Source: Acidobacteriota bacterium (lineage in GTDB: Bacteria; Acidobacteriota; Thermoanaerobaculia; Multivoradales; Multivoraceae). From it: a stretch of 64,000 nt of DNA. A program made the position numbers and the translations under genes. Positions 52,049 to 63,533 of this stretch are shown in pieces; the stretch's first letter is position 1; every line of letters begins with the position of its first letter. Under the pieces are notes generated by a model that saw only the letters and a list, made by a program, of their open reading frames with translations, did not search any database and had not been told where the DNA came from. The DNA lies in NCBI GenBank assembly GCA_003388555.1, contig QQVD01000034.1:62001-126000 (forward strand), given 5' to 3'.

Positions 52049-52582
52049 CTACGCCGGACCTATGGCGGCGTTCTCGTCCGGCGGCTGGCGGAAGCTCCAC
52101 AGGAGCCGACCGACCCACGCCAACGTCCACGCCATGTAGATGCCTAGCGCCCAGAGAAATCCCGAGCTCAGACGCGCCTCCTCACCGCTCGTCGCTGCCT
52201 CCAGATTGGCGGTCACGGTGAAGTGGTTGATCGCGATGGCGAAGAGCACGGAAGCCACTCCGAACCACTCCATCGCGCCGCGCAGCCGGTCCAGCGTCGC
52301 CTCGCGCCGTTCCTCTGCCAGCCAGAACTCGCGGTGGGGGATGTTGATCAGGCTCGGCGGCAGACGCGAGATCAGGGCGTTGATCAGCGGTGCGAAGAGG
52401 GCGAAGGCGAGCAGCAGGATGGTGGCGAAGGTGGCAAAGGTGGCCACGTCGCTCCAGCCGTCGGCTCGGCCGGCGAGCCCGAAGTGGGTGGCGACCCGTT
52501 CGGGCAGGCGGGGCAGGTAGTACAGCAGGTGGATGGTGCCGGCGAGCACGGCTGCGACCAGCACGAGGAGCGAGGTGCGCAT
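52049..52582 (-). CDS. DUF1648 domain membrane protein
   Basis: 177 residues with four or five membrane helices. The start has the DUF1648 signature: a first helix, then LPERVATHFGLAGRADGWSD. A second helix (FATFATILLLAFALFAPLI) and two C-terminal helices follow (EWFGVASVLFAIAINHF and FLWALGIYMAWTLAWVGRLLW). In Firmicutes such domains occur in SdpI-type immunity proteins, but here the SdpI C-terminal part is not evident, so no immunity role is claimed. CAGGAG precedes the ATG at 52582. It is on the same strand as the respiratory operon but 166 bases beyond its last gene. Confidence 0.85.
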   Translation of the reverse strand: MRTSLLVLVAAVLAGTIHLLYYLPRLPERVATHFGLAGRADGWSDVATFATFATILLLAFALFAPLINALISRLPPSLINIPHREFWLAEERREATLDRLRGAMEWFGVASVLFAIAINHFTVTANLEAATSGEEARLSSGFLWALGIYMAWTLAWVGRLLWSFRQPPDENAAIGPA

Positions 52583-52748: not shown

Positions 52749-54062
52749 TCAGCGATCCAGGCGCGCCGACCACACCGCGTAGAGCATTGCCTTGGTGGTG
52801 TCGGCGAAGAGATCCTCGGCGTGGTAGTCGGCGACGCGCAACGCCAGGAGCGGCCCCTCGGCGCCGCCGAGACGCAGGCTGACCTCGGCGTCGAGCTCGC
52901 TGCCGTAGTCCTGCCTCGAAGGGGCGCCTCCGTCGGCCCCGAAGCGGTGCAGCCACACCGACCACGACCAGCGGCCGTGCTCCTGGTCGTAGCGCACGAA
53001 GAGGTCCTCCAGCCCCCACACCGGCGTGGTGAGGAACTTGTCGGCCCAGCCGTTGAACTTGTGCAGCGTGGCGAGCGGTGTCTGCAGCGCCACCTCGCCG
53101 TCGCCGCCGAGCAGTTCCCAGCCGGCGCGCACGCTCCATGCCTCGCCGCCGATGCCGAGCTCACCCCGGGCGTACAGGGCTTCGAAGTCGAGGGGATTGC
53201 CACCGGCGTCGCGCTGCTGGGCGAGCTGCGCCTCGAAGAGCAGCTCGCGCCCGCCACGCAGCGGAGCGCTGCCGGAGTATCGCCCTCCCAGCGTGTTGCT
53301 CGAGAGGAAGCGGCGGGAGTCCGCGTCGTAGTCGAGCTGGTAGCCGAACAGCACCAGGCGCCCGGGCCCCAGAGCGGCGGAGAGATTGAGCAGGTGACCG
53401 GTGAGATCGTCGCGTCCGCCGTTGATCCGGTGCACCCGGTCGAGGAGGGCGTAGCGCGCCCGCCAGCGTCCACCGATCGCCTGCTCGAGGGTCAGGGCAT
53501 CGACGCTCTGGTGGTGCTGCCGCCAGGCCACCGTGCCGACGAAGCGATGATCGTCGTAGGCGAGCCGGCGGCGTCCGATCTGCACCTCGGTCTGCTCGCT
53601 GGGCGTCCACACCAGCGCCGCCTCGAGAACCTCGGTGAGGTCGGGATCGGCGACCACCGGCCGGTCGGAGACCTGGTTCGACAGGCTGCCCGCGCCGAGG
53701 TTGTCGTAGAGCTGTCCGTTGCCGAGCACCGAGACGTCCTCGACAGCCAGGCGGACCGAGAAGCCGCGCAGCTGGCCGGTCTCGACGGCGAGCTCGGTGC
53801 GCAGGGTCGAGGCGAGCGCGTTGCGGCCGGCGAAGCGTGGGGTGTCGTCCTCGACCTGCTCCAGCCGGTAGCGCAGGCCGAGAGTGACCTTCGAGCTCCG
53901 CAGCGCCTCGCGGAAGGCGGACGTTGGAGTCGGCTGCGCGCCGTCCACGCTCGCTGCGGAGTCCTGCGCGACCAGCCTCGTCGGAGCGGCAGGCAGAACC
54001 GCGAGCAGCGCGGCGACGGCGACGCGGAGGCTGCGGAACCGCAGCCGACCGACGCGACTCAT
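52749..54062 (-). CDS. Outer-membrane beta-barrel protein at end of respiratory operon
   Basis: 437 residues: a signal peptide (LRVAVAALLAVLPAAPTRLVAQ), then an alternating pattern of about 16-18 amphipathic strands with aromatic ends (VTLGLRYRLEQVED, RYALLDRVHRINGG, AWSVRAGWELLGGDG, MLYAVWSARLD). The layout is that of alginate-export/AlgE-like or general porins; the segment TEVQIGRRRLAYDDHRFVG is typical of that group. The ATG overlaps the stop of the double-NapB gene (ATGA), so it is part of the operon. A channel for nitrate, nitrite or another oxyanion, or an outer-membrane partner of the cytochromes, is inferred from context only. Confidence 0.75.
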   Translation of the reverse strand: MSRVGRLRFRSLRVAVAALLAVLPAAPTRLVAQDSAASVDGAQPTPTSAFREALRSSKVTLGLRYRLEQVEDDTPRFAGRNALASTLRTELAVETGQLRGFSVRLAVEDVSVLGNGQLYDNLGAGSLSNQVSDRPVVADPDLTEVLEAALVWTPSEQTEVQIGRRRLAYDDHRFVGTVAWRQHHQSVDALTLEQAIGGRWRARYALLDRVHRINGGRDDLTGHLLNLSAALGPGRLVLFGYQLDYDADSRRFLSSNTLGGRYSGSAPLRGGRELLFEAQLAQQRDAGGNPLDFEALYARGELGIGGEAWSVRAGWELLGGDGEVALQTPLATLHKFNGWADKFLTTPVWGLEDLFVRYDQEHGRWSWSVWLHRFGADGGAPSRQDYGSELDAEVSLRLGGAEGPLLALRVADYHAEDLFADTTKAMLYAVWSARLDR

Positions 54063-54775
54063 GGCGCGATCTCCGCGCCCCGGCCCGGCCAGGTGTCGAG
54101 GCGTTCCGCGGCGAGCACCCGATCGACCGGCACGTGGCACTGCCGGCAGACCACCCGCTCGGGGTGGCTGGTGGCGATCTCCGGGCGCGCCGCCGGACCG
54201 GCATGGCAGGCGAGGCAGTTCTCCCGCATCCACGACGGATGGGGGATGCGCGGCGGCGCCAGCGGATGCTGCCTGCTGCCTCGCTGCGAGGGACTGCGAA
54301 GACCGGCGAATTCGCTGGCGACGAACGTCGACTCGACGACTCGCGGCACGTGGCACTGACGGCAGTCGCGGGTGCGGCCGGAGATCTCCTGGTGCAGCGA
54401 CAGCGCAGGTGCGGCCGACGAGCTGGCATCGACGACGCCGTGGGGATTCGCCGGCGCGATACCGACTCCCGCCACCACCACCGCCTGGCCGGCGTGGCAG
54501 GCGGTGCACGGCGAGGGGTGCTCGCCGTGAGGGATCACCGGAGGCGCGCCCCGGTAGGCGCGGCGCTCGCGGCGCACCTCGTCGTTCGTCGCCTCGACGC
54601 TCGCGGCGTCGCCCCAGTGGGGGCCGCGGCCTCGCTGGGTCGGCACGCAGCCGACGGCGGCCAGCACGAGCCACACCGCGGCGATCGCGACCGGCGCCGT
54701 CGCAGCCCGGTCGATCGCCGAGGTGGAAGAGCGCGGGCGGCGTTCGGCGGACCGGTCGCGGCGCATCGTCGGCAT
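54059..54775 (-). CDS. Tetraheme NapB-like lipoprotein (duplicated module)
   Basis: 238 residues. The signal ends in a lipobox, LVLAAVGC (Cys43). Four haem c sites are visible: CTACH (90-94), CRQCH (138-142), CLACH (187-191) and CRQCH (210-214). Each half repeats the diheme NapB layout: APPVIPHG...CTACHAG...CRQCHVP, then APPRIPHP...CLACHAG...CRQCHVP. NapB normally has two haems and passes electrons to NapA; here the module is doubled in one chain and membrane-anchored. The start lies one base after the napA stop, and its end overlaps the porin start, so all three are coupled. Role as electron donor to the adjacent NapA is inferred. Confidence 0.85.
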   Translation of the reverse strand: MPTMRRDRSAERRPRSSTSAIDRAATAPVAIAAVWLVLAAVGCVPTQRGRGPHWGDAASVEATNDEVRRERRAYRGAPPVIPHGEHPSPCTACHAGQAVVVAGVGIAPANPHGVVDASSSAAPALSLHQEISGRTRDCRQCHVPRVVESTFVASEFAGLRSPSQRGSRQHPLAPPRIPHPSWMRENCLACHAGPAARPEIATSHPERVVCRQCHVPVDRVLAAERLDTWPGRGAEIAP

Positions 54776-54776
54776 C

Positions 54777-57149
54777 TCAGGCCCGCTCGACCGCCACGGC
54801 GCACTTCTTGTAGTCGGGCTCCTTGCTGATGTTGTCCATCGCGTCCAGGGTCAGCAGGTTGACCAGCTTCGACTCGTCGAAGAAGGGCACGAAGAGCGAG
54901 CCGCGCGGGGCGTGTCCCTTGGCGTCGGAGCGCGCCGGAAGCACCAGCTCACCGCGCCGGCTGCGCAGCCGCACCGGCTGCCCCTCCTGCACGCCCAGCT
55001 CGGTCATGTCGGCGGGGTTCATCTCGACGTAGGCCGCAGGCACCGCCTGGTGCAGCTCGCGGACCCGGCGCGTCATCGAGCCGGTGTGCCAGTGCTCGAG
55101 CACCCGCCCGGTGCAGAGCCAGAACGGGTACTGCTCGTCGGGCTCCTCGGCCGGCGGGTGGTAGGGGCGCAGCCACACCGCGGCCTTCTGCTCGTAGCCC
55201 TTGGCCTTGTAGAAGTGCACGCCCTCGCGCTTGGTGACGTAGGGGTCTTCGCCGGCCGCGTATCGGTAGCGGGTCTCCCGGCCGTCGACCACCGGCCAGC
55301 GCAGGCCGCGCGCCTCCTGCAGCTGACGGTACGAGGCGAGGTCCTTGCCGATTCCCAGAGTGAAGCGGCGGTACTCCTCGAACATCGGCTCGTGCCAGTT
55401 CTCGCCGTCGGGCCACGGGAAGAGGTGCGCCATGCCCATGCGCCGCGCCACCTCGATGATCTGCTGCGCGTCCTCCATCGCCTCGCCGGGCGGCTCCACC
55501 ATCTTGTGCCACTGCTGGGTGCGACGCTCGGAGTTGCCGAACACGCCTTCGCGCTCCACCCAGGCGGCCGAGGGCAGGATCAGGTCGGCGACCTCCGTCG
55601 TCGGCGTCGGATAGATGTCGCTGACCACCAGGAAGCGACCGTCGCCGGGCTGGCGGCGCCATCGATTCAGGTTGGGCAGCGACACCCAAGGATTGGTGGT
55701 CTGGATCCACAGCGAGCGCACCTCGCCGCGCTGGAAGGCACGGAACAGGTCGACCGTGTGCAGGCCCGGCTTCGGGTTGATCGTGCCGGGCTCGAGCCCC
55801 CAGATCTCCTCGGCCTTCGCCCGATGCTCGGGGTTGGTCACCACCATGTCGGCCGGCAACCGGTTCGAGAGGGTGCCGACCTCGCGCGCCGTGCCGCAGG
55901 CCGACGGCTGGCCGGTGAGGCTCCACGGGTTGGCGCCCGGTCGCGAGATCTTGCCGGTGACCAGATGCAGATCGTTGAGCAGGTTGTTCATCCAGGTGCC
56001 GCGGGTGTGCTGGTTGACCCCCATGCACCAGAGACTCACCGTGCCGCGCCGCAGGTCGCCGTAGACGTCGGCGAGGCGCTCGATCGTGGCCGGATCGACG
56101 CCGCTGATCTCGCCGACCCGCTGCGGCGTATACGGCTCGAGGAAGCCGGCGAACTCCTCGAAGCTGGCCACGCTGGCGGTGTCCTGGAAGGTGTAGCGCT
56201 CGGCCTGCTCTCCGTAGCAGCCGAAGCCGATCTCGTCGAGATCCTCGATGCCGCGGCGGAACACCACGTTCTCGGCGATGAACGAGCGGTCGATGCGTCC
56301 CGAGCGGACCAGGAGGTGGAGGATCCCGTTGGCCAGCGCGAGATCGCTGCCGGGTCGGAACTCCACGTACAGGTCGGCATAGTCGGTGGTCGGTGTGCGC
56401 CGCGTGCCGAGGTCGATGAGCCGGGTTCCGGGCTTGCGCTGCTTCGTCTCGAGGATGCGGCTGAACAGCACCGGGTGCATCTCGGCCATGTTGTTGCCCC
56501 AGAGCACGAAGTCGTCGGCCGCCTCGAAGTCGTCGTAGCAGCCCATCGGCTCGTCGCTCTGGAACTGGGTCATGAAGCCCATGACGGCGCTCGCCATGCA
56601 CAGGCGGGCGTTGGGGTCGAGGTTGTTCGAGCGCATGCCGCCCTTGACCCACTTGAGCGCCGCGTAGCCGTCGAACACCGTCCACTGTCCGGAGCCGTAC
56701 ATGCCGACGGCATCGGGGCCGAGCTCGTCGAGAGTGCGCCCGAACTCCGTGGCGACCAGATCGAGGGCCTCGTCCCAGCCGATGCGCTCCAGCGTCCCGT
56801 CGGCGCGCCGGCGCTGCGGGTGGCGCAGGCGATCCTCGCCGTAGAGGAAGCCGGGCAGGTGGTAGCCCTTGACGCAGAGCAGGCCGCGGTTGACCGGTGC
56901 TGCCTGGTCGCCGCGCACGGCGACGACACGTCCCTCGCGCACCCCGACCTCGACGCCGCAGCCGGTGCCGCAGAATCGGCAGGGAGCCTTGTCCCAGGAG
57001 ACGCCGCCGAGGTCGGTGGTCAGGGCGCGCTCGGTGATGGCGCGGGCGCGCTCCTGGTCGCCGCACGAGAACGCCACCACCGCGCTGCCTCCGGCTCCGA
57101 GGGCGTAGAGGAAGTGCCGGCGGTCCAGATTGCGGTGGAAGTGACTCAT
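54777..57149 (-). CDS. napA: NapA-type periplasmic nitrate reductase catalytic subunit
   Basis: 790 residues, a molybdenum bis-MGD enzyme that reduces nitrate to nitrite. The N-terminus has a twin-arginine signal (LDRRHFLYALGAGG), so it is exported folded. The [4Fe-4S] site is Cys57, Cys60, Cys64 and Cys92, with the conserved Lys94 after it (LLCVKGYHLPG). The molybdenum ligand is Cys184 in ARLCMASAVMGF. Later family segments are GQPSACGTAREVGTLSNRLP and PADMVVTNPEHR, and DYKKCAVAVE at the end. It is close to NapA in these segments, but an assimilatory-type or other oxyanion reductase cannot be fully excluded. Neighbours are an octaheme cytochrome upstream and a NapB-like protein downstream. 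No napD or napC is present. Confidence 0.9.
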   Translation of the reverse strand: MSHFHRNLDRRHFLYALGAGGSAVVAFSCGDQERARAITERALTTDLGGVSWDKAPCRFCGTGCGVEVGVREGRVVAVRGDQAAPVNRGLLCVKGYHLPGFLYGEDRLRHPQRRRADGTLERIGWDEALDLVATEFGRTLDELGPDAVGMYGSGQWTVFDGYAALKWVKGGMRSNNLDPNARLCMASAVMGFMTQFQSDEPMGCYDDFEAADDFVLWGNNMAEMHPVLFSRILETKQRKPGTRLIDLGTRRTPTTDYADLYVEFRPGSDLALANGILHLLVRSGRIDRSFIAENVVFRRGIEDLDEIGFGCYGEQAERYTFQDTASVASFEEFAGFLEPYTPQRVGEISGVDPATIERLADVYGDLRRGTVSLWCMGVNQHTRGTWMNNLLNDLHLVTGKISRPGANPWSLTGQPSACGTAREVGTLSNRLPADMVVTNPEHRAKAEEIWGLEPGTINPKPGLHTVDLFRAFQRGEVRSLWIQTTNPWVSLPNLNRWRRQPGDGRFLVVSDIYPTPTTEVADLILPSAAWVEREGVFGNSERRTQQWHKMVEPPGEAMEDAQQIIEVARRMGMAHLFPWPDGENWHEPMFEEYRRFTLGIGKDLASYRQLQEARGLRWPVVDGRETRYRYAAGEDPYVTKREGVHFYKAKGYEQKAAVWLRPYHPPAEEPDEQYPFWLCTGRVLEHWHTGSMTRRVRELHQAVPAAYVEMNPADMTELGVQEGQPVRLRSRRGELVLPARSDAKGHAPRGSLFVPFFDESKLVNLLTLDAMDNISKEPDYKKCAVAVERA

Positions 57150-57190
57150 CGAGGGTCTCCTGGGATGTTCGGCTCGCCGCCACGGTCGGG

Positions 57191-58813
57191 CTACGAACGG
57201 TCCCCGTAGCGCTCCCGCATCGCTTCGCGGATCGCCTCGGCCTGGGCCTCGGCGCCCTCCTCGAACCAGGCGTGCTCGGGGCGCGCCAGGATCTCGTCGA
57301 TCACCCGTTCGACCTCGGCGCCGCGCGCCCCGGCTCCCTCGGCGAGGTGCCGCGCCTGCGGGATGAGCTCCATGTAGAAGCGCTCGGCGACCTCGAACAT
57401 CCCGTGCCAGTGGGTGTAGTCCGGCGCCATCATCGAAGCGCCGTGGCGCGCTCGCCGTCCCTCGTGGTGCCACAGGTAGAACCAGGTGAACTCGATCTCC
57501 TCGTCGAACTCGGTGGGGGTGAGGAGCTGCTGCTCGCGCAGCGCGGCGATGATCTTCTGGCCCGGCTTGGCGAACTTCTCGTTGTAGAGGATCACCAGGT
57601 CGTCGTACTGCTCGTAGAAGGCGTCGACGTAGTTCGGGGTGTGGCAGTGCTGGCAGACGGCGCGCATCCGGTTGCGCTTGTTCTGCGCGCTGTCGGCGAT
57701 CAGCTCCTGGCGGGTCGCCAGGTCGGTCTCGGTGACGATGTGGCCTTCGATGTCGGTGTCCATCACCAGGCTGACCGGCGGCCGGTTGGTCCACGAGATG
57801 CGCTCGCCCGGATCGTGGGTGATCTTGCCGCCGTTGCGGCTGTGTCCCGACATGTGGCAGGTGGCGCAGGTCGGCGCCTGGGCGTAGTCGACGCCGAGCA
57901 CCCAGGTGTCGCCGTCGAGCTCGAGCTCGTCCCTGAGGTCGCGGTAGGCGACGCCGTGCTTCGATTCCTCGAAGATCTCCTTCTGCGGGTGGTCGGGGCC
58001 CAGGTGGCACTTGCCGCAGTTCTCGGGCTGGCGGGCGCGCCTCGGCGAGAAGTCGTGGCGGCTGTGGCAGGCCGAGCAGGAGCCGCGCGAGCCGTCGAGA
58101 TTGAGCCGGCCGATGCCGGTGTTGGGCCAGGTCGACGAAGCCAGCACCGGACGGCCCTCGGGGCCGCGCAGGATGCGGCCGACGGCTTCGAGATTGGTCG
58201 GCCTGCCGTCGGCGTCCGGCTGCAGGTCGTCGACAGTGATCAGGCCCCCGTCGGTCGACTCCAGCGCGATCTTGCTGCCGTGGCACTGCTGGCAGCCGCT
58301 GGCGGCGCTGGCCATGCCGTTGACCGCCATCTCGCCGCGGCCCGGGGTCGGCGAGTGGGGGTTGAACGAGCCACGGAACCCCTCGACCGTTTCGGCGAGG
58401 AAGTTGTCGAGGGAAGCGAGGATGTTGCCGCCTGCCGCGTGGTGGCTCCCCTCGAACTCGGCCGCCTCGGTGACGTGGCATTCGCCGCAGTCCTTCGGCG
58501 TGACGATGGTGGCGATGACGTTGCCGTAGTGGGTGTGCGCGTCGGCGTCGGTCTGCTCGGCGCGGTGGCACTCGACGCACCCCACGCCCGCCTCGGCGTG
58601 GCGGCTGGTCTCCCAGTGCTGGATGATCCCGGTGCTCACCTGGGTGTGGCAGCTGACGCAGTCCTGGGACGACGACGGCACCGGATGTCGGGCCTCGGAG
58701 ATACCGGCCTCCTCGGCTCGGCGCACGATCTCCATCCACTGCACGAAGACGAGCGACAGCAGGAAGACCGCCGCGAGCGCGACGATCACCCAGCGTTTCT
58801 GATCGAGAGTCAT
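57191..58813 (-). CDS. Membrane-anchored octaheme cytochrome, HAO family
   Basis: 540 residues. One uncleaved-looking membrane helix (VIVALAAVFLLSLVFVQWM, 9-27) anchors it. Eight CXXCH sites are seen at 52, 79, 109, 174, 246, 266, 316 and 387 (CVSCH, CVECH, CGECH, CQQCH, CSACH, CGKCH, CATCH, CQHCH). Spacing, the segments IIQHWETSRHAEAGVGC and DYTHWHGMFEVAERF, and the 150-residue helical C-terminus fit hydroxylamine oxidoreductase-like octaheme proteins. Such enzymes either oxidise hydroxylamine/hydrazine or, when the P460 cross-link Tyr is absent, reduce nitrite. Which applies is undecided. It sits between cytochrome b and NapA, so it may take the place of cytochrome c1 (inference). Confidence 0.85.
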   Translation of the reverse strand: MTLDQKRWVIVALAAVFLLSLVFVQWMEIVRRAEEAGISEARHPVPSSSQDCVSCHTQVSTGIIQHWETSRHAEAGVGCVECHRAEQTDADAHTHYGNVIATIVTPKDCGECHVTEAAEFEGSHHAAGGNILASLDNFLAETVEGFRGSFNPHSPTPGRGEMAVNGMASAASGCQQCHGSKIALESTDGGLITVDDLQPDADGRPTNLEAVGRILRGPEGRPVLASSTWPNTGIGRLNLDGSRGSCSACHSRHDFSPRRARQPENCGKCHLGPDHPQKEIFEESKHGVAYRDLRDELELDGDTWVLGVDYAQAPTCATCHMSGHSRNGGKITHDPGERISWTNRPPVSLVMDTDIEGHIVTETDLATRQELIADSAQNKRNRMRAVCQHCHTPNYVDAFYEQYDDLVILYNEKFAKPGQKIIAALREQQLLTPTEFDEEIEFTWFYLWHHEGRRARHGASMMAPDYTHWHGMFEVAERFYMELIPQARHLAEGAGARGAEVERVIDEILARPEHAWFEEGAEAQAEAIREAMRERYGDRS

Positions 58814-58886
58814 GAGCCTGTTCCTTGCATTCCGTGGTTGGTGAGACGTTCGTGCGGTGCTGGCGGGCCGGCCCGCCGGGGGCCGC

Positions 58887-59963
58887 TCAGTGCGCCACGA
58901 CCGCCTCCCAGACGGTGAGGGCGATGATCGCGAAGACGCCGCAGATGCCGATCCACACGCTGGCCTCGGTGAACCGTGTGCGCCTGCGGATCTGCTCGTC
59001 GATGAACGGCCAGGCGAACATCACGAAGACGACGAAGCCCATCGACAGCACCGCGGTGAGGCCGGAGAACAGCTTCAGCCAGCGGAAGGAGACGTAGAAG
59101 AACCACTCCGGCTTGATCACGTCGGGCGTGACCAGCGGATCGGCGCGCGGCCCCATGGTGGCGGGCCAGAGGGTGGCGAGGAAGCTGAGCATCACCATGA
59201 GGACCAGGCCGATCGCCAGCTCGGTCAGCATGTGGTCGGGGAAGAAGTCGAAGGTCCTTCGTGACGGCGGGCTCTCCCCGGGCTCGGCCCTCTCGTCCTC
59301 GAACTCGAACTTGGTGACGCCCTGCAGCCGGATGATCGCGATGTGCAGCACGATCAGCAGGATCAGCACCACCGGCAGCACCGCGGCGTGGAGGATGAAG
59401 AAGCGCGGCAGGGTGCGTGGGTTGTAGCCGTCGCCGCCGAGCAGCATGTCGCGCATCAGGCCGCCGACCAGCGGCACCTGACCGGCGATGTTGGCGCCCA
59501 CGGTGGCGCCCCAGTAGCTGAGCTGCTCGTAGACCAGGCTGTAGCCGGTGAAGCCCAGGGTCAGGGTGCAGATCAGCATCAGCATGCCGACGATCCAGTT
59601 GATCTCGCGCGGCTTGCGGTAGGCGCCGGTGAAGTAGACCCGCATCTGGTGCAGGATGACCGCCGCGATCATCAGAGTGGCGGCCCACTTGTGCACGCTG
59701 CGCAGGTACCAGCCGTAGGGCAGCTGGGTGGTGATGTACTCCACCGACTCGTAGGCGGTGGTCGGCGAGGGCTGGTAGTAGACCGCCAGCAGGATGCCGG
59801 TGACGATCTGCACCACGAACAGGTAGGCCGGAGTGCCGCCGAGCGCGAACCACCAGCGCTTGAGGTGGTTGGGGACCGGCTCGTTGGTGAGCTCGCGCAG
59901 GTCGGCGGCCGAGACCGGCAACCGCTCGGTGATCCACGAGCCGACGGCGGAGAAGGCGTTCAT
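58887..59963 (-). CDS. Cytochrome b of a Rieske/cytochrome b complex
   Basis: 358 residues with about eight membrane helices, so the b6-like and subunit IV-like halves are fused. Haem ligands are His91 and His105 (13 residues between) in helix B, and His192 and His207 (14 between) in helix D; the 13/14 spacing is that of b6-type proteins. The Qo-site motif is PEWF where most relatives have PEWY. It oxidises quinol and passes electrons to the Rieske protein. The ATG overlaps the Rieske stop (ATGA). No cytochrome c1 gene follows; the next gene encodes the octaheme cytochrome 73 bases away. Confidence 0.94.
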   Translation of the reverse strand: MNAFSAVGSWITERLPVSAADLRELTNEPVPNHLKRWWFALGGTPAYLFVVQIVTGILLAVYYQPSPTTAYESVEYITTQLPYGWYLRSVHKWAATLMIAAVILHQMRVYFTGAYRKPREINWIVGMLMLICTLTLGFTGYSLVYEQLSYWGATVGANIAGQVPLVGGLMRDMLLGGDGYNPRTLPRFFILHAAVLPVVLILLIVLHIAIIRLQGVTKFEFEDERAEPGESPPSRRTFDFFPDHMLTELAIGLVLMVMLSFLATLWPATMGPRADPLVTPDVIKPEWFFYVSFRWLKLFSGLTAVLSMGFVVFVMFAWPFIDEQIRRRTRFTEASVWIGICGVFAIIALTVWEAVVAH

Positions 59964-60691
59964 GCGCGGCGAGTCCCCGAGAGATTCGCGGCTCTCGGGC
60001 GGCCGGACGGTCTGCCGAGGCGCGTCGTCGAGGTCTCGGCGCGGGTCTGCGCGGCCGGCGCCAGGCAGGCTCCGGCGGTGGCCTGAGACGCCTGCATCGG
60101 CTCGAGCCGCGGCCGGCGCAGGCTCGCGCCGTGCAGAGCCGAGAAGGCGGCGAGCTCCTCCCTCGGCAGCTGGATGAAGAGCATGCCGCGGTCGTCGCGC
60201 ACCGGGTAGCGCAGCAGGCTCTGGCCCGCCTCGGCGGGCGGCCCGGCGGTGGCGACCCCGTCGGGATCGAAGACGCCGTTGTGGCAAGGACAGAAGAACC
60301 GGTTGTTGTGGGCTTCCCAGTGCACCTGGCAGCCGAGATGAGGGCAGGTGCTCGACAGGGCGGCGAAGTCGCTCCCGTCCCCGCCTTCGCCTGACGCGGC
60401 GGCTGCCGCCGCCACGCCGCGTCGGGTGACGTTCACCGGCTCGCCGCGCGGCGTGCGGAACAGCCGCGCTTCGCCGGGCTGGAGCTCCGAGGTCCGGGCG
60501 ACGAAGAACCACGAGCGATCGGTCGGCTCGGGATAAAGGAATCGGCCGACGAAGGCCGCCAAGGTGCCGTACGAGGCCGCCAGGCCCGCGGCGACGGCGC
60601 CCCAGGCGAGCAGCTCGCGCCGGTTGCGGCCGGAGCGCTCGGGCGGCCGGTCGTTCGGTCTTTCCGTCGTGGTGTCGTGTGGGGAGCTCAT
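59960..60691 (-). CDS. Rieske 2Fe-2S protein
   Basis: 243 residues. The N-terminus has a twin-arginine-like GRNRRELLAWGAVAAG and one membrane helix (about 27-48). The Rieske cluster is held by Cys116 and His118 (CPHLGC) and Cys134 and His137 (CPCHNGVFD), with Cys121 and Cys136 as the disulphide pair. It accepts electrons from quinol at the cytochrome b Qo site. After the cluster domain there is an extra tail of about 60 residues, Ala/Arg-rich with one Cys (ATAGACLAPAAQ), which is not part of the usual fold. The stop overlaps the cytochrome b start. ATG 60691 is the only start giving a normal N-terminus. Confidence 0.94.
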   Translation of the reverse strand: MSSPHDTTTERPNDRPPERSGRNRRELLAWGAVAAGLAASYGTLAAFVGRFLYPEPTDRSWFFVARTSELQPGEARLFRTPRGEPVNVTRRGVAAAAAASGEGGDGSDFAALSSTCPHLGCQVHWEAHNNRFFCPCHNGVFDPDGVATAGPPAEAGQSLLRYPVRDDRGMLFIQLPREELAAFSALHGASLRRPRLEPMQASQATAGACLAPAAQTRAETSTTRLGRPSGRPRAANLSGTRRA

Positions 60692-60768
60692 CGCGATCTC
60701 CGGCGTCGGTGCGGGTGCGAACGGGGACGGCGCAAAAGGGCGCAAGGGCCCAGGATCCGAGGGAAGGA

Positions 60769-62451
60769 TCAGAAGGGGCGGAACGGCAGCGAGCCGTAGC
60801 GCTCCAGGCTCAGCAGGTCGTAGATCGGCTTGGCGTACGCCGCGATCACCAGCACCACGGCGATCAGTGCCCACAGCCCGATGCGGTCCCAGACCGGGCG
60901 ACGCTCGGGCAGTGGATCGAGGGCCGCGGCGAACTCGATCTCGAGCTCCGCGGCCTCGGTGACCGGCCTGCCCCAGCGCCAGGTGGCGACGACGACGGCC
61001 AGGAACATCAGCGAGGAGACGAAGAGCACGACGCCGCCGGCGGCCGACATGCCGGTCAGCAGCCGCCACGAGCCGGCCACCTCGTCACCGAAGTAGCTAG
61101 AGCTGAAGACCCGGCGCGGCTGCCCCATCAATCCGGTGGCGTGCGAGGTGAGCGAGAAGAGCATCATGCCGCCGAACCAGACGTAGGGCTGCCAGGTGGC
61201 GAGTGGGCGCAGCGCCAGCCTGCGGCCGGTGAGCTTGGGCAGGAACCAGTAGGTGGCCCCCATGAAGGTCAGCGTCACCGCGGTGCCGACGGTGAGGTGG
61301 AAGTGGCCCTGGATCCACGCCGTGTTGTGCACTACCGTGTTCATCGCGTAGGCGGCGTTGATCGCGCCGCCGAAGCCGCCGATCGCGAAGGTGAGCATCG
61401 CCAGCGCCACGCCCGAGAACAGCGGATCGCGCCACGGCAGGGTTCTCAGCCAGCCGAACAGGCCCTTGCCGCCGCGCATCCGGCCGGCGACCTCGAGCGA
61501 GGCGATGATGGTGAAGGCGGTGACCAGCGACGGGTAGAGGATCGCGTAGGTGGTGAAGGTGTGCACCAGCTTCCACCCGGCGTGCACCCCCGGGTCGACG
61601 AACTGGTGGTGGAAGCCCACCGGCGTCGAGAAGAGGATGAACATCACGAAGACCACCCGTCCGAGCTTGTCGGAGAACAGGAGGCCGCCGGCGACGCGCG
61701 GCAGGATGGTGTACCAGACGACGTAGGCCGGCACCAGCCAGAAGTAGGTGAGCGGGTGTCCGAACCACCAGAACCAGGTGCGGGCGACGATCGGGTCGAT
61801 CGTCTCCACCCAGCCGAGAGACCAGGGGATCAGTTGACCGAGAACCTCGGCCGCCAGGCCGGAGGTGGCGAGGACCCAGATCACCACCGTGGTCAGGATG
61901 CCGTGCGCCGCCAGCGGCATCGGCTCCTGGTGGGTTCGGCGCCACACCAGCCAGGTGCGGATCATCACCGCGCACCAGAGCCACGAGCCGACCACCAGCA
62001 GCGTCGCGCCGATGTAGAAGGTGGGGTGGGCCTCGAGCGGCGGGTAGAAGGTGTAGAGCACCGTGCTGGTGCCCGAGAGGATCGCCAGCGTCGTCATCAC
62101 GGTGCCGAAGACGGCGGTCCAGAACGAGACCCAGCCGAGGGTCTCCCACTCGAGGCCGCCGAAGGCGCGGCGCATCAGTAGGTAGCCGAGGCCCATGATG
62201 AAGAAGGTGGTGAAGACCAGCGCCATCAGCACCCCGTGGGCGGTGACCGAGAGGTAGTAGACCGCCGGCGAGGAGAACCACACCGGCAGGTCGGCGCGCG
62301 CCAGCGCCTGCATCACCGCCATCAACGCACCGAGGCCGAAGGCGGCGATCGCGACGGCGAAGTTGCAGCTCGCCAGCCGCCTCGAAGCGAGCAGATCGAG
62401 GGCGTCGCGGTCCGCCGCGAAGGCGCCGAGCACCGGGCTCGCCACGCTCAC
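60769..62451 (-). CDS. cbaA: ba3-type (B family) cytochrome c oxidase subunit I
   Basis: 560 residues with about 13 membrane helices. The low-spin haem ligand is the His in TAHGVLMALVFTTFF. FWWFGHPLTYFWLVPAY has the CuB His and, four residues on, the cross-linked Tyr. The other CuB histidines are in STPVGFHHQ, and the two haem histidines in IQGHFHLTVG. Keeping the His-Tyr pair argues for an oxygen reductase rather than a nitric oxide reductase of the same family. GTG 62451 overlaps the subunit II stop and follows GGAGGAGG. The K-channel-only B-family enzymes have high oxygen affinity (family knowledge). First half of the operon, upstream of Rieske by 77 bases. Confidence 0.95.
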   Translation of the reverse strand: MSVASPVLGAFAADRDALDLLASRRLASCNFAVAIAAFGLGALMAVMQALARADLPVWFSSPAVYYLSVTAHGVLMALVFTTFFIMGLGYLLMRRAFGGLEWETLGWVSFWTAVFGTVMTTLAILSGTSTVLYTFYPPLEAHPTFYIGATLLVVGSWLWCAVMIRTWLVWRRTHQEPMPLAAHGILTTVVIWVLATSGLAAEVLGQLIPWSLGWVETIDPIVARTWFWWFGHPLTYFWLVPAYVVWYTILPRVAGGLLFSDKLGRVVFVMFILFSTPVGFHHQFVDPGVHAGWKLVHTFTTYAILYPSLVTAFTIIASLEVAGRMRGGKGLFGWLRTLPWRDPLFSGVALAMLTFAIGGFGGAINAAYAMNTVVHNTAWIQGHFHLTVGTAVTLTFMGATYWFLPKLTGRRLALRPLATWQPYVWFGGMMLFSLTSHATGLMGQPRRVFSSSYFGDEVAGSWRLLTGMSAAGGVVLFVSSLMFLAVVVATWRWGRPVTEAAELEIEFAAALDPLPERRPVWDRIGLWALIAVVLVIAAYAKPIYDLLSLERYGSLPFRPF

Positions 62452-62924
62452 CGCGCCTCCTCCACGATCAGCTTGCCGGACATCAAATGGTGGGAGAGGC
62501 CGCAGTACTCGTTGCACACCACGAGGTGCTCACCCGGTTCCGGGAAGGTCAACGAGAACTCGCTCACGTAGCCGGGCGCCACCATCACGTTGGCGTTGGT
62601 GCCCACCACCTGGAAGCCGTGCAGCACGTCGGGAGAGGTCACCCGGAAGGTGACCTTCTCGCCGGCGGGGACGCGGATCACGCTGGGCTCGAAGCGGAAC
62701 ATCTCGGCGACCACGACGACCGTCGTCTCACCACCCGGGCCCCGGTGTACGCCGGGCGCCGCGAACTCCCCCTGGATCCGCACCTGGAGCGGGTCGATCG
62801 TCTCGACCTCGCCCGGTGGATGCACCGCCTGGGTCGCGGCCGAGAAGGCGACCACGGCCAGGAACAGGGCGATCATCGCGCTCGCCGCCCACATCCAGAT
62901 GCGTTCGTAGAGATCGACGTGCAT
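62448..62924 (-). CDS. cbaB: ba3-type cytochrome c oxidase subunit II (CuA)
   Basis: 158 residues: one N-terminal membrane helix (WAASAMIALFLAVVAFSAAT) and a cupredoxin domain exposed to the periplasm. The CuA ligands are all visible: His102 in DVLHGFQ, Cys137, Cys141, His145 and Met148 in CNEYCGLSHHLM. Length and single helix are as in ba3-type oxidases. It accepts electrons from a soluble or attached cytochrome c and passes them to subunit I. The stop overlaps the subunit I start (GTGA). Confidence 0.95.
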   Translation of the reverse strand: MHVDLYERIWMWAASAMIALFLAVVAFSAATQAVHPPGEVETIDPLQVRIQGEFAAPGVHRGPGGETTVVVVAEMFRFEPSVIRVPAGEKVTFRVTSPDVLHGFQVVGTNANVMVAPGYVSEFSLTFPEPGEHLVVCNEYCGLSHHLMSGKLIVEEAR

Positions 62925-62951
62925 GACGCGCTTGCCGTCTGACGACGCCCC

Positions 62952-63140
62952 TCAGTGGGTCGGTGCGCCGCGGGCGATGAACAGGAAGACGTAGATGGCG
63001 AACCACCCCAGCGCGAAGAGCAGGCCGTAGACGAGCACGATGGCCAGCGTGCCGACGGGGTGCTCGGGGAGCTCGTGGGGCGCCGCGCGGTAGGCGGTCT
63101 CGGTGGAGCCGCTGCTGTCGTCGGGATCGGTGGCCGACAT
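62952..63140 (-). CDS. Cytochrome c oxidase subunit IIa
   Basis: 62 residues with one membrane helix (TLAIVLVYGLLFALGWFAIYVFLF, split by no charged residue). Small single-helix subunits IIa precede subunit II in ba3-type oxidase operons, and the spacing here (27 bases) fits. The cytoplasmic arm is polar (SATDPDDSSGSTETAYRAAP). The ATG at 63140 has GGAG 11-14 bases upstream, a little far. This is the first gene of the respiratory operon. Confidence 0.8.
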   Translation of the reverse strand: MSATDPDDSSGSTETAYRAAPHELPEHPVGTLAIVLVYGLLFALGWFAIYVFLFIARGAPTH

Positions 63141-63533
63141 CGTGGTCGTGGCAACTCCTGGTCGGTGTCGAAGTGATATCTGGCAAGCCTGCGTGAGCTC
63201 GTCGAACAGGGCCATCGTGGAAATCCACGAGGAGACCCGAAGGGCGGATCCACGAAGGCCCCGGCGTTTCAGGTATAGCCTCCGCCGCACTCCACCACGC
63301 CAGCGGAGCTCGACCGCGGGTACAACCTGGTGCGTCGTTGGCCTACACGCCGGCGTGCGCCCGTCCGACGCCACGTCGGAGAGCCTCTTTCGTAGACTGG
63401 GGCCAGCAGCGTCGCGGCGTGCACGGGGGCGAATGCCGCGGCACCGCGACCCGTGTGTCCGCTCGCTCTTGCGTCACCCGGTCGTGGCCATCACCTCTTC
63501 GAGATTTCGAGCCGACGAGCTCAGAGACATCCC
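63141..63533. other. Divergent control region of the respiratory operon
   Basis: 393 bases between oxidase subunit IIa and the divergent membrane-protein gene. It holds the palindrome listed separately and, on the minus strand, TATACC (complement of 63273-63282 area) as a weak -10 candidate without a recognisable -35. No FNR-type TTGAT-N4-ATCAA site was found by eye. No additional gene is supported. Confidence 0.4.
63215..63230. promoter_or_regulatory. Palindrome upstream of respiratory operon
   Basis: TCGTGGAAATCCACGA is an inverted repeat with six-base arms and a four-base spacer, 75 bases upstream of the subunit IIa start. A further half-site TCCACGA lies at 63249-63255, 24 bases (a little over two helical turns) from the matching half of the palindrome. 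This spacing would suit a dimeric repressor or activator of the operon. It is seen directly; the binding protein is unknown. Confidence 0.45.

Follow-up and report, generated by a model that had tools for sequence, protein, structure and literature searches.

The window analysed here is a stretch of 64,000 nucleotides from an Acidobacteriota genome (contig QQVD01000034.1). Between positions 63140 and 52749, its minus strand holds nine intact open reading frames (ORFs) with no internal stops, which encode a ba3-type oxidase, a Rieske protein and cytochrome b, an octahaem cytochrome c of the hydroxylamine oxidoreductase (HAO) family, the periplasmic nitrate reductase NapA with a duplicated NapB, and an outer-membrane barrel. 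An earlier description from the letters alone (hereafter the sequence-only reading) had proposed nine same-strand genes at this site, and all nine frames were confirmed on the minus strand. From the small oxidase subunit to the barrel, the successive junctions measure 27, -4, 77, -4, 73, 41, 1 and -4 bases, matching the spacing of 1-77 bases reported for the non-overlapping pairs (27, 77, 73, 41 and 1). The 4-base overlaps of the ATGA/GTGA type number three (CoxB/CoxA, Rieske/cytochrome b and NapB/barrel) rather than the four that had been counted. The start of NapA (57149) is taken from a corrected reading of the sequence. The nine genes are as follows:

62952..63140, minus strand: 62-amino-acid membrane peptide resembling ba3 subunit IIa (CbaD-like); CoxIIa PF08113 at 16.9 bits, below the cut-off of 20.7
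62448..62924, minus strand: ba3 oxidase subunit II (CoxB), complete CuA site; COX2 E 1e-7, over the cut-off
60769..62451, minus strand: ba3 oxidase subunit I (CoxA), GTG start; COX1 E 9e-90; GTGA overlap with subunit II
59960..60691, minus strand: Rieske iron-sulfur protein with N-terminal anchor; PF00355 2.6e-10
58887..59963, minus strand: cytochrome b, a single chain of 358 amino acids; PF00033 1.5e-50, PF00032 2.3e-10
57191..58813, minus strand: membrane-anchored octahaem cytochrome c, HAO family; Multi-haem_cyto 4e-23; eight CxxCH
54777..57149, minus strand: NapA, Tat-exported periplasmic nitrate reductase catalytic subunit; PRK13532 equivalog
54059..54775, minus strand: tandem-duplicated NapB with four CxxCH; PF03892 29.6 bits (cut-off 25.1)
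52749..54062, minus strand: outer-membrane beta-barrel, Alginate_exp family; PF13372 34.1 bits

Subunit I of the oxidase matches the Thermus thermophilus ba3 oxidase (1ehk) at E 4e-122 and 7deg at E 3e-99, with the remaining haem-copper oxidases at 5e-14 or worse, and for subunit II the best solved relative is the corresponding chain of the T. thermophilus ba3 enzyme (E 2e-39). On these matches the oxidase is assigned as a ba3 (B-type) cytochrome c oxidase. The CuA site of subunit II is complete (C-N-E-Y-C-G-L-S-H-H-L-M), and the electron donor of ba3 should therefore be a cytochrome c rather than quinol; the same site disfavours a role for ba3 as a quinol oxidase, which was considered as a candidate.

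At the other end of the operon, NapA scores 940.7 bits against the PRK13532 equivalog (cut-off 904) and 918.6 bits against TIGR01706, 12 bits under its cut-off of 930.6, and matches the NapA structure 3ml1 at E 1e-243. With an Fe4S4 domain (PF04879), an RRHFL Tat signal and the motif NARLCMAS (Mo-Cys), it is, as judged from these features, a normal NapA. Neither NapC nor NapD is encoded in the operon. The NapB-like protein departs from the two-haem pattern of NapB: the domain scores above its cut-off but the protein carries four haems in two tandem halves. These halves can be aligned to one another (HHalign probability 99.2, E 1e-19), which together with the four CxxCH motifs upholds the tandem duplication that had been suggested, and four haems are present in 29 homologous NapB-like frames. 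More tentatively, the barrel is a candidate nitrate/nitrite porin.

The 2Fe-2S ligands of the Rieske protein are present (CPHLGC...CPCHNG), and cytochrome b has its haem ligands (H91/H105 and H192/H207) at b6-type spacing, the four histidines being near-invariant in 82 homologues. Its Qo motif is PEWF, and is PEWF/W/Y across the same homologues. This cytochrome b is the only PF00033 protein found in its genome. The absence of cytochrome c1 claimed in the sequence-only reading was borne out: no c1/f subunit is encoded alongside, the octahaem is the only c-type protein beside cytochrome b, and no c1-like gene is a conserved neighbour of the Rieske-b-octahaem cassette in the loci compared below.

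Many Rieske proteins of the cassette also show a conserved GPGHDPCL tail after the fold, often with an extra Cys (loci L035, L036, L041, L051, L060 and others of the set described below); the C-terminus of the window protein (about 59960-60100) has only a degenerate AGACLAPA. At the position of cytochrome b6 Cys35 (haem c_n/c_i), Cys is found in 33 of the 82 cytochrome b homologues and Ala in 49, including the window protein, in which the N-terminal ALGG (about 59830-59850) is the matching site. Judging from this residue, the extra haem c_n/c_i seems to come and go within this cytochrome b family.

The octahaem cytochrome combines eight CxxCH motifs with an N-terminal hydrophobic helix, and eight haem motifs are present in all 100 homologous frames checked. 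Its solved relatives are members of the HAO family, the best being 4qo5 from Ignicoccus (E 2e-52, profile), followed by 6h5l, HAO and hydrazine dehydrogenase. In 20 octahaem homologues from several phyla the mean column identity is 77%, and the pair Asp274-His275, which aligns with the Asp-His of Nitrosomonas HAO (1fgj), is invariant in 20 of 20; the PDHP motif is retained in 93 of 94 octahaems. The Nitrosomonas europaea HAO reference sequence is identical to PDB 4fas over 503 residues. In the alignment, the column of HAO Tyr467 holds Trp (His if the gap is shifted by one residue) and never Tyr in the window protein and 84 relatives, and 4qo5 and 6h5l likewise have no tyrosine at this cross-link position. 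An absent cross-link tyrosine has been taken in the literature as the mark of a reductase (PMC5317091). Because the Asp-His pair is kept but the cross-linking tyrosine is absent, the octahaem is probably a nitrite (or nitric oxide (NO) or hydroxylamine) reductase as well as a stand-in for cytochrome c1. A true HAO that oxidises hydroxylamine and passes the electrons to ba3 or the quinone pool would agree with the fold family and the conserved Asp-His pair, and Tyr466, which is invariant and stands two to three residues before the Tyr467 column, leaves a small doubt in its favour; given the lack of tyrosine in that column, shared with the nearest solved relatives, we consider it very improbable.

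A common N-terminal anchor motif is found in 84 of the 86 octahaems linked to Rieske/b, and the other two have a hydrophobic helix of different sequence. In octahaems that occur without Rieske/b (L109, L132 and L133), the start resembles a cleavable signal peptide; such unlinked cases are few, the tree shows two of them as sisters, and one further locus (L025) was not scorable for Rieske/b. An anchor kept with Rieske/b and a signal peptide without it would be expected if the anchor holds the octahaem in the Rieske/b complex.

The position of the octahaem, in the place of c1 and anchored like c1, could also mean that it conducts electrons and catalyses nothing itself, with NapA, ba3 or partners elsewhere in the cell acting as terminal enzymes. 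A bc-like operon with an octahaem as its only c subunit is known with no activity assigned to it (PMC3578206), and some loci consist of the three genes only, with no conserved terminal enzyme adjoining. This explanation must, however, contend with the invariant Asp-His pair and the nearly universal PDHP motif, and with the retention of the active-site residues in secreted-looking homologues that lack Rieske/b, which fits an enzyme. Nor did the models tried detect another nitrite reductase in the genome: NrfA and NirS were not found, and NirK gave nothing above cut-off. Clade II NosZ likewise gave nothing above cut-off. With the assembly at 98.8% completeness and in 74 contigs, such gene absences are likely but not certain. 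A purely conducting octahaem seems to us unlikely.

To place the locus in context, named genomes were scanned for octahaem relatives; of the more than 500 obtained, the best 80 loci were kept (Acidobacteriota, Gemmatimonadota, Planctomycetota, Myxococcota and others, by names in the record titles); the neighbour counts and the tree cover 93 loci, window included, with only scorable loci in the denominators. A close full-length octahaem occurs in about twenty of 396 sampled genomes of the window's phylum. Cytochrome b adjoins the octahaem in 86 of 90 loci, one of the four exceptions (L040) having a truncated cytochrome b frame alongside, and the Rieske gene adjoins cytochrome b in nearly all homologous loci. 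By comparison, NapA adjoins the cassette in 36 of 85 loci, the barrel in 12 of 64 (on either side) and ba3 in 11 of 59. The octahaem tree, made with a quick method and weak at many of its branches, requires no fewer than 15 changes of state for NapA and no fewer than five for ba3, so these add-ons joined or left repeatedly. From these neighbourhoods we conclude that the core is a three-gene Rieske-b-octahaem cassette, to which Nap and ba3 are optional additions. The cassette flanks, including those of loci without NapA, contained no further conserved neighbour family, and clusters on the reverse strand proved to be shadow frames.

The order ba3-Rieske-b-octahaem-NapA-NapB is identical in six loci (L088, L100, L127, L129, L130 and L131), four of which (L127, L129, L130 and L131; family code f36) belong to one other family of the phylum. 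All nine families are present in a different order at L117 and eight of them in another order at L035, while L118 and L039 have ba3 and no NapA. Acidobacteria bacterium Mor1 (L050) carries Rieske-b-octahaem-NapA-NapB. An ORF of the IIa-like type also precedes CoxB in L088, L100, L117, L118, L127 and L129-L131. The window and the six same-order loci share 62-64% identity in ba3 subunit I and 65-68% in the octahaem, so the genes were either linked long ago or brought together on two occasions. A chance cluster of nine genes is ruled out by the recurrence of the gene order in other genomes. The search for co-occurring genes that had been proposed as a check thus recovered the order from ba3 to NapB in six loci, and this recurrence supports the view that Rieske/b, HAO-like octahaem, Nap and ba3 form a conserved unit.

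The variable position of ba3 between genomes (upstream, downstream or divergent), and its absence from most of them, would also suit genes for low oxygen that share a location and one promoter with no direct coupling, ba3 being fed by a soluble cytochrome c encoded elsewhere and Rieske/b feeding only Nap or neither. CuA oxidases do normally receive their electrons from soluble cytochrome c. A soluble monohaem cytochrome c is, however, neither encoded in the operon nor a conserved neighbour, and on the tree ba3 genes occur with the cassette in two or more separate clades. We regard co-location of this kind as somewhat unlikely.

Some individual loci deserve mention in their own right. One genome (G238) carries the cassette twice, with ba3 downstream of one copy (L118) and NapA downstream of the other (L119). 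Locus L096 (CAMDPK010000213.1) is labelled Candidatus Kuenenia stuttgartiensis, but comes from a 7.4 Mb genome with a single HAO-family match, and its octahaem groups with Planctomycetota; the Kuenenia label is probably wrong. With only that one match, the genome was dropped as a source of anammox HAO sequences.

We think it moderately probable that the operon encodes one branched respiratory module, in which electrons would run from quinol through Rieske/b and the octahaem to oxygen, nitrate and probably nitrite. In line with established biochemistry, cytochrome b and the Rieske protein would run a Q-cycle that oxidises quinol, and the high-potential electron would pass to the octahaem, which its N-terminal helix would keep in the complex in place of c1. 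From the octahaem, electrons could reach oxygen through the CuA of ba3, or nitrate through the double NapB and NapA. The haem-4 site of the octahaem would probably reduce nitrite, the product of NapA, or NO or hydroxylamine, taking nitrate onward towards ammonium; this step, a direct hand-over of electrons with no soluble carrier and the passage of nitrate/nitrite across the outer membrane through the barrel are suggested with more reserve. Nitrate reduction by Nap is usually thought not to conserve energy because NapC bypasses the Q-cycle. Here quinol would be oxidised by Rieske/b and not by NapC, and nitrate reduction would therefore conserve energy. That all nine proteins are physically joined in a supercomplex, a complex III with the octahaem as hub that feeds ba3, the double NapB and its own nitrite site directly and with no soluble carrier, as a respirasome switchable between three acceptors, appears doubtful, and we would call it quite improbable.

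Several points weigh against the branched module. The links are loose, NapA not lying beside the cassette in 49 of 85 scorable loci and ba3 not in 48 of 59. The genome also holds an alternative-complex-III-like cluster beside an aa3 oxidase and one NapC/NrfH-like protein outside the operon, so other routes to ba3 and Nap exist; another aa3-type oxidase is present as well. NapD, the usual NapA chaperone, was not found in the genome, and another chaperone may serve NapA or NapD may be too diverged. Finally, the substrate of the octahaem is deduced from the alignment alone, the AlphaFold model made with 20 homologues having been set aside as too poor for use (pLDDT 56, pTM 0.39).

As to the limits of the operon, no same-strand gene directly adjoins it upstream, where a plus-strand ORF runs from about 63453. 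As this upstream frame is divergent, the operon probably begins with the small IIa-like subunit, preceded by the following feature:

63141..63452, no strand: spacer before the divergent reading frame, likely the operon promoter region

A sigma-70 scan, which has little power here, found no promoter-like site, and terminator-like sites showed no excess over shuffled sequence. On the minus strand at 52049-52582, 166 bases past the barrel, lies a small membrane protein (MRTSLLVLVAAVLAGTIHLLYYLPRLPERVATHFG...) that looks DUF1648-type and is possibly the tail of the operon.

The closest published arrangement is the nap locus of Caldithrix abyssi (Cabys_2564-2556), where Rieske (Cabys_2558), cytochrome b (Cabys_2557) and octahaem (Cabys_2556) genes are consecutive beside nap, and whose authors propose that Rieske/b feeds Nap and an octahaem nitrite reductase (PMC5317091). 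In gene content and order the two loci are alike, with the three genes adjacent to napA and neither NapC nor c1 (PMC5317091). Caldithrix has NapM, NapG and NapH and no NapB, whereas the window has a double NapB, no NapGHM, and in addition ba3 and the barrel. Bc-like operons with an octahaem as the sole c-type subunit beside Rieske/b are likewise described for Nitrospina gracilis, Kuenenia and Methylomirabilis oxyfera (PMC3578206); their cytochrome b is split into b6 and subunit IV, unlike the single chain of the window, and the passage on them mentions neither Nap nor ba3. Work is also in progress on Rieske/b complexes of anammox bacteria that contain HAO-like subunits (PMC12954380). Of these, Kuste4569-4574, for which nitrite reduction is proposed, shares with the window operon a Rieske protein, a b-type chain, a multihaem c and an HAO-like octahaem; its split b6/SUIV, its pair of multihaem proteins and its NAD(P) oxidoreductase have no counterpart in the operon (PMC12954380). 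In Campylobacter jejuni, Nap receives its electrons from QcrABC, allowing electrogenic nitrate reduction, and nitrate respiration is lost when qcrABC is deleted (PMC6195509). The deletion shows Nap being driven there by a proton-motive Rieske/b with no NapC, as proposed for the window. QcrABC is encoded apart from Nap, is of conventional type and brings a c-type subunit of its own, and the system has neither an octahaem hub nor a ba3 oxidase sharing its operon (PMC6195509). The octahaem itself resembles IhOCC of Ignicoccus hospitalis (4qo5) and 6h5l in its HAO fold family and, by alignment, in the absent cross-link tyrosine; 4qo5 has Val at the position of His275, whereas the window protein keeps the Asp-His pair.

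The sequence-only reading knew of no described system with this gene set. This stands for the exact set of nine genes but not for Rieske/b with an octahaem, which is described in PMC3578206, nor for the same combination with nap (PMC5317091). The sequence-only reading also did not mention the nitrite reductase site that the octahaem itself probably has. No paper in the open-access literature searched was found to describe a tetrahaem NapB together with Rieske, or an octahaem of the Acidobacteriota together with Nap. As far as we could find, the ba3/double-NapB version with an anchored, strongly conserved octahaem is unpublished. What is new is the assembly into one unit branched to oxygen and nitrate, the three-gene core being widespread and already published in principle.

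If the branched module is correct, the cassette would let Acidobacteriota, Gemmatimonadota and Planctomycetota build proton-motive force from periplasmic nitrate respiration, and probably from nitrite respiration, and the presence of ba3 within the operon would offer a testable case of a single complex III serving both oxygen and nitrate. Multihaem proteins have been proposed in early forms of bc complexes (work cited in PMC5317091), and this large conserved family of anchored, tyrosine-free octahaems would provide material for examining whether such proteins came before c1 in these complexes.

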